The position numbers and the translations under genes were made by a program. 58,606 nt of DNA from contig JAJDBT010000084.1 in assembly GCA_029261215.1 (NCBI GenBank), forward strand, positions 1-58,606. Reading direction: 5' to 3'. The notes under the pieces were generated by a model. That model did not search any database. It was not told where the DNA came from and saw nothing but the letters and a program-made list of their open reading frames with translations. This DNA comes from Nitrospirota bacterium. GTDB taxonomy: Bacteria; Nitrospirota; Nitrospiria; SBBL01; JAADHI01. Positions 33,664 to 38,287 of this stretch are shown piece by piece (the stretch's first letter is position 1; every line of letters starts with the position of its first letter).

Positions 33664-34335
33664 ATGCAAGTATTATCTCCGATCAAATACACCCGTCTGG
33701 CTTTCATCAAGCCCTTGCTCTGGCTTTTTGGACTGCTGGGCTTTGTCCTGATGACCCGGACATATTATTTAAACAGTGCGCTTTTTAAAAGTTGGACGCC
33801 TTATTTAAACGCCAACCAAAACCTGGTTTTTTTACTCCTCATGGCCAGCATATATATGGTGCTCTTGAGTATCCCCTTTCTCCCCGGCTTGGAGCTGGGA
33901 TTGTTATTGATGTGTGTTGCCGGGACAAAAATGGTGATCATTATCTATCTTTTTACAGTCTTGGGCCTGACCCTGTCCTTTTTAATGGGGCGCTGGCTCC
34001 CGATGAAATGGATACAATTTGTATTCAGAAAACGAGGGGCGTCCTCAATAGAAAATCAAGCGTTATCAAACATGACTCTCATTCATCAACACGTTGAAAA
34101 ACGATTCGGAAGAAGACTCTCGAGCTTTATCAAAAAATATCCTTATTTGATTGTGGCCCTGCTTTTAAACCTTCCTGGAAACTTCATCTTGGGGGGAGGA
34201 GGGGGAATCGCCATGTTAAGCGGCCAAAACACTCAAATCTCATTGAAAGCCTTTGTCACAACGATTGTCTTTGCGACACTGCCCTTACCTGTATTGATAC
34301 TTTTCGGGTTTATTCAACTCGAGCGTTTTGTCTAG
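33664..34335 (+). CDS. Membrane protein, possibly TVP38/DedA-like
   Basis: A 223-residue protein with five or six hydrophobic segments (about 15-35, 52-75, 78-112, 155-175, 195-218). LSIPFLPGLELGLLLMCVAG and LLNLPGNFILGGGGGIAMLSG resemble the two re-entrant motifs of VTT (TVP38/TMEM64) proteins, which move lipids or small molecules across the inner membrane. The similarity is from pattern only. The start ATG (33664) lacks a clear RBS. The gene converges on the MscS gene, 26 bases away. No close operon partner. Confidence 0.6.
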   Translation: MQVLSPIKYTRLAFIKPLLWLFGLLGFVLMTRTYYLNSALFKSWTPYLNANQNLVFLLLMASIYMVLLSIPFLPGLELGLLLMCVAGTKMVIIIYLFTVLGLTLSFLMGRWLPMKWIQFVFRKRGASSIENQALSNMTLIHQHVEKRFGRRLSSFIKKYPYLIVALLLNLPGNFILGGGGGIAMLSGQNTQISLKAFVTTIVFATLPLPVLILFGFIQLERFV

Positions 34336-34361: not shown

Positions 34362-35360
34362 CTAGCTTGTGCGCTCCACAACACTTGCTTCTCGTGCAAA
34401 AAACAACTCTTCTGCAGATACGAGTCGGTGTTTTAAAAACTCGGAGAGCACGATTTCTGTCATCTCTGTCGAAAAAGCAAACTCATAACTCAAATCAAGC
34501 ACATAGGCCTTGAGTCTCATTTTAAGCCAGGAACGGCCTTCATGTATCTCATTTTTAAGGACGACAGAAATGGGTTTATTCAGATAAACATATCGCGAAA
34601 CCGAAGCGGCGCGGCGGGCGATTTTTTTCGCGCTGATTAAATCGATGTGAGGCGGCAGGTAAAATTCTGCGACGACCTGACAGTTTTTTTCTCCAGCATT
34701 ACTGTTGGAGACTGAGGTGTTGACGATCTCGCTGTTCGGGATAGAAACCAGGGAATCGTCTGGCGTGACAATACGGACCGTACGCAGACCAATATGCGTC
34801 ACTTCTCCATAATATTTTCCGACTTCAACCTTGTCCCCGATCTGAAAGGGACGGTCAAAAAGAATAATCACGCCTCCAAAAATATTTTTAAGGATATCCT
34901 GAGAAGCAAATCCGACAGCAATACCGGCTGAGGCGGTCAATGCAACCAGGGTTTCGATCGGCGGGGCGATCACATCTGCGACGATCATGTAAAGAAGCAG
35001 CGTCCATCCCCCGACGCGCAGGATCGGAATGGTTCTTTTGATCATCAGGCGGAAATAAATCCAGTGTTCTGCAAGAGCGTCCAACAGTTTTGCAAGATAA
35101 GTGATCGCAATCCACCCAATCAGAAGAACGACGACAGACCAGGCCACCTTTTCCATCGAAAGCGTCCATGCCGTTTCGACCTTTTGGGCAACCTTGGAAG
35201 CAAGGGCCGACGCACCGCCGGATACAGTGTTTTCAGTGTTGATGTCTGCCTGAGACTCAAGGCTTAGACCCGAAGTCGGATGTAAAAAAAAGGCACAGAA
35301 CAAAACAACACTCCCAAACAAAAGGGAGAAACGCGATATGCCTCTAACTTTCTTTTTCAA
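34362..35360 (-). CDS. MscS-family mechanosensitive channel
   Basis: A 332-residue channel with a signal-like first helix (10-33), a periplasmic stretch, membrane segments at about 72-95 and 115-135, and the pore helix ETLVALTASAGIAVGFASQDILKNIFGGVIILFDRPFQIGD (about 135-180), the MscS core. The C-terminal beta and alpha/beta domains form the cytoplasmic cage. The start is a TTG (35360) that overlaps the stop of the upstream ATPase gene (TTGA), so translation is coupled. It responds to membrane tension; the coupling to an ATPase is unusual. Confidence 0.88.
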   Translation of the reverse strand: MKKKVRGISRFSLLFGSVVLFCAFFLHPTSGLSLESQADINTENTVSGGASALASKVAQKVETAWTLSMEKVAWSVVVLLIGWIAITYLAKLLDALAEHWIYFRLMIKRTIPILRVGGWTLLLYMIVADVIAPPIETLVALTASAGIAVGFASQDILKNIFGGVIILFDRPFQIGDKVEVGKYYGEVTHIGLRTVRIVTPDDSLVSIPNSEIVNTSVSNSNAGEKNCQVVAEFYLPPHIDLISAKKIARRAASVSRYVYLNKPISVVLKNEIHEGRSWLKMRLKAYVLDLSYEFAFSTEMTEIVLSEFLKHRLVSAEELFFAREASVVERTS

Positions 35361-38287
35361 TGGAGAATATTCCTCAATTTTAAAGCGTGAACGATCGGTC
35401 GATAAAGGATCGGGTTAATCTGGTAATGCGCTGTTGCGGTCTGTACGACAATGCCTTTTTTCTCCATACGATCAAGCAGAATCAGGCTCTGTTTTTTTTC
35501 AAGACGAAAGACCCAGACATGTTCTCCCACATTCAAACGCTCATGATGAAGCAGCGCCGCAAGCGTAAACAGCTCGTCACTTGAAATCCGAAACAGTGAC
35601 GAGGAATCCACATTCAAATCCGAGGATATCGTCAAGGTATGATTTTCGATCTTCTGGATGGCCGTCAACCAAAAGAGCAGAGCGACCGAGATATTCCCAT
35701 CCGCCAATGTCGTCAGGCGGTTAAAAAAAGCCGTCCTTAACACGGCTTGAGGATCAAGATTATTAGACTGCTTTTTCTGTTTTGAGCGTATCACTGGCGC
35801 GTCGAAGACTAAACCGTATCCGCTCACACGGTGACGCTTTAAAATGATGCTTTCGATCTCTTCCCGAGTCAATCGATTCAAAAAATGAGACGATTGAAAA
35901 AATGTCGAAATATCGAGTGCCTTTTCAAGGTAGCGCCAGCTATACAGAGTACAGGTATTCAGCCAGTAAATTGTCTCACAGGTGCGGGACATCAACATCA
36001 GGAGGCGCTCCAGCAGATCAAAACCATCCACCGTTCTCAGGAAAAGGTTTTGAAGATCCTCCAGGCAAATAATTTTTCGATCTTTTTCGATCAAAATCTG
36101 CGATTCAAGTTCGTCCAGATTGGATACGTTCGAAATTTTAAAAACGTCATTAAGCACATTGAGCAGGGCTTCTTCCGAAACCGGCCGCTCCAGAGCAAGA
36201 CTGATCCTAAAAAAAGGAAGTTGATTATAGATTTTTGGAGCAGCCGCATTAATCAGGCTTGTTCGGCCGCATCCCTTTTCTCCCACGATCACCGTGATTC
36301 CGGGGCTTCCGTTTCTCCATGCCTCGAAACTTGTTTTTAGTCCTGCCAAATGCCTGTCCTGCCCTTCAAAAAACCGCTGGTCAGCCAAAGGGTTCAGTTG
36401 AAAAAGCCGCTGGTACACATAAGGGAGTTCTTCAAATTTTTTGCGATTTTCAAGCACAAACTTCGAAAGCCCATCCTCTCCCTCCACCCTTGAAGCGGGC
36501 AGACCCGCAAAACCCCTCATCCTCGAATAGAACAACTTGAGGGTGTCCCATTGTTTCAAGAGAATGGACCGGGCTGATGAAAGGGTCTCTTCACCTCGGT
36601 CTAACAGTTTTTCCTGATACGTTCTGGCCTGTTCCACAGTTTTGGCTTTGGCCAGACGAACCTTCAGTTCTAAAATTTTTTCGTTTTGGCCCAGGGCCCT
36701 GATCTGCTGCTGAAATGATTCAATCCCTTTTTGGCGATTTTCCTGAATCAGGGCTGCAATCCCCTGGGCACCCATCGTCATCGTTTCAATCTGGGAGAGC
36801 GCACGCTCCAGACCTTCAATGATTTCACGTCGAACAATGGGCGCATCCTGAAAACCTTCCGGCCTCGCAAGCAGATCGAGCCCGGATTCCAGGTTATATT
36901 CAACCAGGGCGTCAAACTCCGACACATTCTGGGTAATTTGTAACCATGCAGACTGAACCTGCTGAAGCAAGTCCTCATGTTCAGTTTCAAGTTGTTGACA
37001 GGCCTCTTCCTTGACCAAGGCCTTGAGTTGCACTTCAGAAACCTTGGGATTTGGGAAGGGGGAATCCCAATCCGCTTTAACCAAGAGCCAGTGTGTTTCC
37101 GAAAGTTGATCGACGGCATGGAAAATACGAGAATGACAATTCTCCAGATTTTTAAGCAAGGGCACCTGATCAAGCAGTGAAGATATTTCAGGCAGTGTTT
37201 CGCGGCGGAGGGTTCGCAGCATAGAACGGCTTTCTGACAAAATCATCGACTTTAAATCAGAGCTTTCCTCTACCGCTTTTTCTGTTTCCTTAAATTTCTT
37301 GAGCGAGAGCGTGATAAGATCGCGGGCTTCCTGAAATTTCGGGACGAGTTCTCCTGAAATTCTTGCCTGAATTAATTGCTGAGATTGGATATGGGCCTGC
37401 GATACCCGCACCAGAAGCAAGGCCAGCTCCAAATCTTTTTTCCAATCATCCTGCTCAGCCTCAAAGTGACGATCCCAGCCTTCCTGAAGCTTTGCGGCCT
37501 CAGCGTCGAGGCGCACAACGTCTTCTCCAAAATGAGACGATTTGCTCACTATTTCCGGGCGGTTTTCTGCTTTAACCTCATTTCCAAGCGACATCGCCCT
37601 TTCTAAAACAGAGAGACCATCGGCTTCAAGCGTCTCTGCCCTCTCCTTCTCAATCAGATCCAATTTGGCGAAATATGCCTCCAGTGATGGAGATAGCGGC
37701 CGAAAAGGTGTAGTCAATGCCGAATGATCCTTTTCGGCATTGACCGTGAGCGCATCCAGACATTGTTCAATCCAGAGCTCCCCGTCCTGATGCAATTGAT
37801 GAAAGATCTGAGCTGTTTCATAGCATAATGGACGACTCAAGTTCAGCAGGGCTTTAGATAAGGGGTATTCCAAATGAAGACGGAGAAAGCCTTCCATTTC
37901 ATTTTCTGACTGCTCTTCAGTAGCATCCGGAGAGATTTTCTGCGGACAGGAAGACGCCGTCAGTTCAGAAAACACCCTGCGCCACTGCCCGATCAGCTGA
38001 CTTGGGGAAGCGTTCTGGGTAGTAGCATGAAAGGATTCAAGCCAATCGATCTGCTCTTGAAGAACCGACTCCAGGAGAGAAGGCAGTTTTTTGGAGGAAA
38101 CATCTCCCTGAGAAAGCGCATCGACCTCCTCCAAAAAATGAAGATGAATAGACTCCAAAGCCCGAAGAGATTCGCGATGTCCTGCTTTCCACTCAGAGAG
38201 AGATTTTCGGCCCTGGGCAGGGAAGGCGGACTTTATTGCCTTAATAAAATCTTCAATGGACTCATATTTCATGACAAACATCATCAT
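35357..38287 (-). CDS. Large coiled-coil P-loop ATPase of unknown function, coupled to MscS channel
   Basis: A 976-residue soluble protein I cannot assign to a named family. Residues 1-620 are almost wholly helical and charged with long coiled-coil-like stretches. An NTPase domain follows: Walker A GEKGCGRTSLI (about 667-677), then a Walker B-like KIICLEDLQNLF (about 738-749), and a segment like STAND/AAA+ sensor helices (HFLNRLTREEIESIILKRHRVSGYGL). The last 100 residues look like a winged helix (LFTLAALLHHERLNVGEHVWVFRLEKKQSLILLDRMEKKGIVVQT). No membrane segment or signal peptide. The three leading Met codons have no clear RBS; the real start could be 38287 or 38272. The stop overlaps the MscS start. 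The function may be to regulate the channel or assemble a membrane-associated scaffold (inference). Confidence 0.8.
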   Translation of the reverse strand: MMMFVMKYESIEDFIKAIKSAFPAQGRKSLSEWKAGHRESLRALESIHLHFLEEVDALSQGDVSSKKLPSLLESVLQEQIDWLESFHATTQNASPSQLIGQWRRVFSELTASSCPQKISPDATEEQSENEMEGFLRLHLEYPLSKALLNLSRPLCYETAQIFHQLHQDGELWIEQCLDALTVNAEKDHSALTTPFRPLSPSLEAYFAKLDLIEKERAETLEADGLSVLERAMSLGNEVKAENRPEIVSKSSHFGEDVVRLDAEAAKLQEGWDRHFEAEQDDWKKDLELALLLVRVSQAHIQSQQLIQARISGELVPKFQEARDLITLSLKKFKETEKAVEESSDLKSMILSESRSMLRTLRRETLPEISSLLDQVPLLKNLENCHSRIFHAVDQLSETHWLLVKADWDSPFPNPKVSEVQLKALVKEEACQQLETEHEDLLQQVQSAWLQITQNVSEFDALVEYNLESGLDLLARPEGFQDAPIVRREIIEGLERALSQIETMTMGAQGIAALIQENRQKGIESFQQQIRALGQNEKILELKVRLAKAKTVEQARTYQEKLLDRGEETLSSARSILLKQWDTLKLFYSRMRGFAGLPASRVEGEDGLSKFVLENRKKFEELPYVYQRLFQLNPLADQRFFEGQDRHLAGLKTSFEAWRNGSPGITVIVGEKGCGRTSLINAAAPKIYNQLPFFRISLALERPVSEEALLNVLNDVFKISNVSNLDELESQILIEKDRKIICLEDLQNLFLRTVDGFDLLERLLMLMSRTCETIYWLNTCTLYSWRYLEKALDISTFFQSSHFLNRLTREEIESIILKRHRVSGYGLVFDAPVIRSKQKKQSNNLDPQAVLRTAFFNRLTTLADGNISVALLFWLTAIQKIENHTLTISSDLNVDSSSLFRISSDELFTLAALLHHERLNVGEHVWVFRLEKKQSLILLDRMEKKGIVVQTATAHYQINPILYRPIVHALKLRNILH

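Follow-up and report, generated by a model that had tools for sequence, protein, structure and literature searches.

MscS channels are the textbook case of gating by membrane tension alone, and they normally assemble without a dedicated partner. Control of an ion channel by a separate nucleotide-binding protein is familiar from the SUR-Kir6 KATP channels, in which an ATP-binding protein of another class is the controlling partner; this combination of an ABC protein with a Kir channel has no homology to the gene pair considered here. In the RCK-gated K+ channels TrkH-TrkA and KtrB-KtrA, a cytosolic ATP/ADP-sensing partner is encoded together with the membrane ion conductor and serves K+ and osmotic homeostasis; ADP makes TrkA close TrkH, and ATP makes it open the channel (PMC6987127). 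Here we describe a 58,606-nucleotide contig of a Nitrospirota bacterium (GenBank JAJDBT010000084.1; this whole stretch is called the window below), in which an MscS gene overlaps the gene of a large AAA-type protein, the partner ATPase. We think it probable that this pair is a nucleotide-regulated osmotic or ion release module, in which a nucleotide-sensing regulator would link the opening of MscS with the homeostasis of ions and cell volume. The pairing of an ion conductor with a nucleotide-binding partner is known in kind; what appears, provisionally, to be new is the AAA type of the partner, the choice of MscS as the channel and the fusion of the AAA module to exchangers or cotransporters in some relatives. 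Whereas TrkH and KtrB are served by a Rossmann/RCK domain, here an ORC/STAND-type AAA domain takes its place and the channel is an MscS; the action of TrkA on TrkH is a precedent for the regulatory logic and not a case of homology. With no TrkA_N match in Pfam, the window ATPase was rejected as a known TrkA/RCK regulator.

The partner ATPase is encoded by an open reading frame of 976 residues at 35357-38287 on the minus strand, to which all coordinates of the pair below refer, with an in-frame ATG five codons on as a possible alternative start. The MscS reading frame (34362-35360, 332 residues, TTG start) lies downstream of it, and the coordinates of the two frames agree with the four-base overlap claimed in the original prediction: the bases TTGA (35357-35360) are shared between the ATPase stop region and the MscS start. 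The same overlap is found in loci L008 and L002, and L008, whose ATPase is 64% identical to that of the window, keeps the TTG start as well.

Among 295 genomes searched within the phylum, two besides the window genome had relatives, one of them at 64% identity, and a single-protein search of named-genome contigs with the window ATPase gave no match. A C-terminal profile made from a three-sequence alignment detected 11 loci among named genomes, spanning Nitrospirota, candidate division KSB1 and Bacteroidota (Flexithrix, Marivirga, Marinoscillum), and in 11 of 11 the MscS gene adjoins the ATPase gene. The ATPase is present in 73 of 395 sampled Bacteroidota genomes and in 7 of 82 genomes of the KSB1 phylum. 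After duplicate removal, 93 distinct loci from these three groups were at hand, 89 of them with an adjacent MscS gene; in 88 it lies on the same strand within 120 bases (downstream in 76, upstream in 12), in one more it lies at 129 bases (L120), and the spacing is mostly from a short overlap to +13 bases. Three of the four exceptions are cut by contig ends (L085, L089, L092), and the fourth, L050, has MscS divergently upstream. We reject chance adjacency, as chance falls far short of 89 in 93 loci, and a purely local pairing, as the pair is a conserved unit found in at least three phyla. Such tight linkage and translational coupling also fit co-assembly, in line with an alternative that we consider unlikely, namely that the AAA protein is an assembly or turnover factor, acting as a chaperone or scaffold for folding, assembly and clustering of the channel and of the fused transporters without any control of gating.

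The two genes also occur together when they are searched for independently. Orthologous MscS, sought with its own profile (A4, E <=1e-45) in the same 395 Bacteroidota genomes, was found in 64, and the ATPase is present in 64 of these 64. Nine genomes have the ATPase without an orthologous MscS; they hold mainly long transporter-type relatives with a diverged MscS, and one of them (G638) has a marginal ATPase match only. Within the home class, ATPase and MscS occur in exactly the same 3 of 269 genomes, and in the sampled genomes neither gene of the plain pair was seen intact without the other. Distances in the AAA-domain tree and the MscS tree are correlated (r = 0.71 over 86 pairs, against a maximum of 0.26 in 1000 label permutations). 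In the third member of the home Nitrospirota class (G157; L003/L004/L131/L132), the ATPase breaks off at the Walker A region and continues on another contig, both broken ends adjoining unrelated sequence; the MscS gene has an in-frame TAG. If this is not an assembly fault, which is possible in this one draft genome, both genes would be decaying together, as would fit mutual dependence.

The window MscS matches the Pfam MscS beta-domain (PF00924) at 81.6 bits (E = 4.3e-23, cut-off 20.2) over 34698-34898, and its layout comprises a signal-peptide-like hydrophobic N-terminal segment, a transmembrane (TM) region, a pore helix and a beta plus alpha/beta vestibule. The pore helix TASAGIAVGFASQDILKNIFGG (34872-34937) is almost invariant across the family in the MscS alignment, and so is the pattern GIAVGFASQDILKNIFGG of the pore-lining TM3 helix across the pairs. 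The window TM3 has QD at what we take to be Q112-G113 of E. coli MscS, judged by comparison with the E. coli sequence and not by alignment. The channel thus resembles the MscS superfamily (E. coli MscS, MscK, MscM) in family, in a beta-domain score above the Pfam cut-off and in its pore-helix pattern, and differs from it in having a conserved separate AAA partner gene. It falls below all cut-offs of the NCBIfam equivalogs for MscS, MscK and MscM, the best score being that of the MscK model (63.2 bits versus a cut-off of 991), with the MscS subfamily at 42.7 versus 321. The window genome (G000) contains seven MscS genes, six of them without this partner, and we found one copy of this ATPase family in it; the ATPase partner therefore belongs to one specialised channel. 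This ratio speaks against an assembly factor, as does the general rule that channels of this family need no dedicated helper to assemble.

The partner ATPase itself matches PF00004 AAA weakly, above the threshold (25.5 bits, cut-off 21.2). No specific family could be assigned to it, since Pfam offers the generic AAA only and NCBIfam and PADLOC give no informative match, and a PDB sequence search gave no meaningful match. An AlphaFold2 model built with 11 sequences, of moderate overall quality (predicted local distance difference test, pLDDT, 70; predicted template modelling score, pTM, 0.42), is good in its C-terminal part, which is matched in Foldseek by ORC/Cdc6 proteins and also by STAND ATPases including Avs4. 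With VIA-align, A. pernix ORC2 (1w5t_C) was placed on model residues 620-976 (Z 16.2, root-mean-square deviation 5.6, 325 residues), so that both the AAA core and the winged helix are covered. As modelled, the C-terminal part (residues 619-976, 35360-36433) is an ORC/Cdc6-STAND-like AAA core with a C-terminal winged helix, and the winged-helix end suspected from the sequence is borne out by this fold match. The likeness to ORC/Cdc6 and STAND ATPases (A. pernix ORC2, P. abyssi PABY2304, Avs4) is one of AAA core plus winged helix, at Z ~16 over 325 residues; unlike them, the protein described here has lost the catalytic Walker B Glu and has a channel partner, with no origin or defence role indicated.

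The N-terminal region of about 620 residues (36428-38287) consists, in the AlphaFold2 models (pLDDT 79 for the N-terminal half), of bundled long helices interrupted by a small insert of two strands, and a hydropathy scan predicted no membrane segment in it. About 600 residues of coiled-coil-like sequence had been proposed here; the helical character holds, but long helical bundles describe the models better than a coiled coil. The best natural fold match is a bacterial dynamin stalk (5owv_C, Z 12.7, 263 residues), designed helical bundles score Z 13-14, and the helical stalk has no match that exceeds what unrelated helical bundles reach. Several shorter partners (about 300-430 residues) lose most of the N-terminal half and yet retain MscS (e.g., L063 and L095, about 430 residues), and AAA plus MscS therefore looks like the minimal unit. 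A long helical region would suit a scaffold, as an assembly factor might require. The stalk also bears on an improbable reading in which the roles are reversed: the channel would do the sensing, and the AAA protein would be the output that signals tension to transporters or cell-envelope machinery. A weak similarity to dynamin-like stalks (the 5owv match) is in keeping with such a tension reporter, although this match is within the range of unrelated bundles, and the strong conservation of the pore helix argues that conduction itself matters.

The Walker motifs lie where the original prediction had placed them. Walker A is GEKGCGRT (G669-T676, 36260-36283), with an arginine at the usual lysine position that had gone unmentioned, and Walker B is IICLED (residues 739-744, 36056-36073), with E743 and D744 as its acids. 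Among distinct plain members of the family, the P-loop lysine position holds K in 40, R in 15, another residue in 17 and a gap in 3, while its neighbours, a glycine on the N-terminal side and S/T on the C-terminal side, are conserved. All 75 plain members have E or D as the first Walker B acid; at the second position, that of the catalytic Glu in AAA+ enzymes, residues such as N, G, D, H and S occur, and none of 87 rows has E. The sensor-region tryptophan is invariant in the plain form, and the arginine of the KRHRVSGY motif (35816-35839), possibly part of a sensor-2-like helix if our assignment is right, does not vary among the aligned members. Since the family as a whole lacks the catalytic Walker B Glu and often has another residue in place of the P-loop lysine, the simplest reading of these motifs is that the partner would be a nucleotide-binding switch with slow or no hydrolysis, which fits better than a motor. 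The NTP-dependent gate suggested earlier accordingly survives in part: control of the channel by NTP is the most parsimonious interpretation, and the energy-driven ATPase gate is not supported, as the catalytic glutamate is missing across the family. The membrane-tension-responsive ATPase suggested alongside it is neither favoured nor disfavoured by the evidence. Lost catalytic residues would suit the structural role of an assembly factor too, but conservation of the glycine and S/T of the P-loop, of the acid at the first Walker B position and, in the plain form, of the invariant W and R of the sensor region is left unexplained by a pure scaffold.

The strongest functional clues come from the company of the AAA module, which is that of K+, Na+ and Cl- transport. 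In L069 and L070, an N-terminal Na+/H+ exchanger domain (Na_H_Exchanger) is fused to AAA, with MscS next. L049, L050 and L093 have an N-terminal amino-acid-permease/SLC12-type domain fused to AAA (AA_permease in L049 and L050), and residues 2-657 of L093 match the K-Cl cotransporter model TIGR00930 at 7e-114, below the model's own cut-off. Between 10 and 14 N-terminal membrane segments are predicted in L071, L072, L075 and L076, which have the exchanger-type layout, and in L077, L090 and L094; the transporter identity of these domains is not confirmed by a family match. A small MscS follows the fused AAA in L049, L090, L093 and L094 (about 240 residues in L093 and L049). The gene run in L069-L072, L075 and L076 consists of a membrane protein of 414-422 residues (without a Pfam match in L071), the fused AAA protein (about 1500 residues), MscS and a large membrane protein, which is TrkH in L071 and L075. 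In L077 (1-13001), a single run holds TrkA, TrkH, a 10-TM AAA fusion of 1465 residues without a named transporter domain, and MscS; TrkA is a separate gene there, and the AAA partner exists in addition to Trk both in L077 and in the L069-L076 group. In L011, a Na+/H+ exchanger gene overlaps the 3' end of a plain MscS gene. The N-terminal profile detected nothing in the linker region of the transporter-fused relatives, and hence homology to the window ATPase is shown for their AAA part only. Given the AAA fusions to exchanger- or cotransporter-like domains and the operons with TrkH/TrkA, the AAA module would most likely coordinate ion uptake or exchange with release, thereby controlling turgor and K+.

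These fusions have a bearing on the less favoured readings as well. A transporter-fused AAA module would be well placed to relay a signal from MscS to the transporters, as a tension reporter should. The original prediction had also entertained a stress or defence device, and one could imagine a STAND-type sensor that triggers the MscS pore when a phage infects the cell, so that ions leak out and the infection is aborted. The AAA fold group does include STAND proteins, with Avs4 among the Foldseek matches, and the distribution in Nitrospirota is patchy (the 3 of 269 genomes above). However, the fusion partners and operon neighbours seen are transporters (Na+/H+, K-Cl, TrkH/TrkA) and not defence genes, there is no specific PADLOC match (weak generic P-loop matches only in PADLOC-DB), the window ATPase ends at the winged helix at residue 976 without the C-terminal repeat sensor that is a feature of the Avs type, and the gene trees are congruent, with a recurring chromosomal neighbourhood in many Bacteroidota. 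We consider defence very improbable and the least likely of the rivals, and that part of the earlier suggestion is not borne out.

Our preferred model of a nucleotide-regulated release module can be put as follows. The MscS protein would form a pore in the inner membrane, and the cytosolic partner would bind ATP or ADP through its ORC/STAND-like AAA domain with winged helix and dock on the cytosolic vestibule of the channel through the AAA domain or the long helical stalk. The nucleotide-bound and assembly state of the partner might then set whether, or at what tension, the channel opens, so that the AAA protein would act as a regulatory subunit and ion release would follow the energetic and ionic state of the cell. 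In this scheme the operon, the co-occurrence, the congruent trees, the fusions, the fold and the motif state are observed, and physical contact, the direction of control, the ligand, the physiological trigger and gating are inferred. A more specific version, in which one ORC/STAND-type AAA nucleotide switch gates MscS directly and, where it is fused, has a Na+/H+ exchanger or K-Cl cotransporter under its control as well, making uptake and emergency release one nucleotide-governed unit, is advanced tentatively as less probable than the general model.

Several observations weigh against the model. Co-occurrence partly reflects joint inheritance of adjacent genes, and the measures used depend on physical linkage. 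Of the 72 plain members whose P-loop can be read, 17 have neither K nor R at the lysine position, which in Cytophagales members is often L, M or N, and judging from these motifs nucleotide binding may have been lost in some members such as these. The transporter-fused group has far lower scores, a diverged Walker B and a diverged MscS, and the operon of the pair in the window contains no ion transporter gene.

We found no description of an ATPase-MscS pair in the literature, in a search of incomplete coverage that was mostly without subscription papers and preprints. That no named system with these two parts had been recognised agrees with Pfam, NCBIfam and PADLOC, which name no family; nor do they place the ATPase in a characterised family of unrelated role. 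A conserved AAA partner accompanies the channel in about one sixth of the sampled Bacteroidota, and there was no orphan orthologous MscS in the samples. If our proposal is true, many bacteria place a further layer of control, by nucleotide or by assembly, on the MscS valve, which suggests a widespread device letting the ATP or ion status of the cell control salt release. Animal K-Cl cotransporters serve cell volume decrease, and the exchanger and K-Cl cotransporter fusions recall this regulation and make the idea directly testable.

A few further features of the neighbourhoods are noted. In many Bacteroidota (L051-L053, L095, L100-L107 and others), a uridine-kinase-like gene and a gene for a secreted protein of about 430 residues on the opposite strand lie near the pair, and an ankyrin-like gene lies downstream of it, all named by eye. 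A promoter and terminator scan gave results near chance and was uninformative. The window also encodes a membrane protein of 223 residues (33664-34335) without a family match above cut-off; its gene is convergent with the pair and lies between the end of the MscS gene and a PHO4 phosphate transporter gene.

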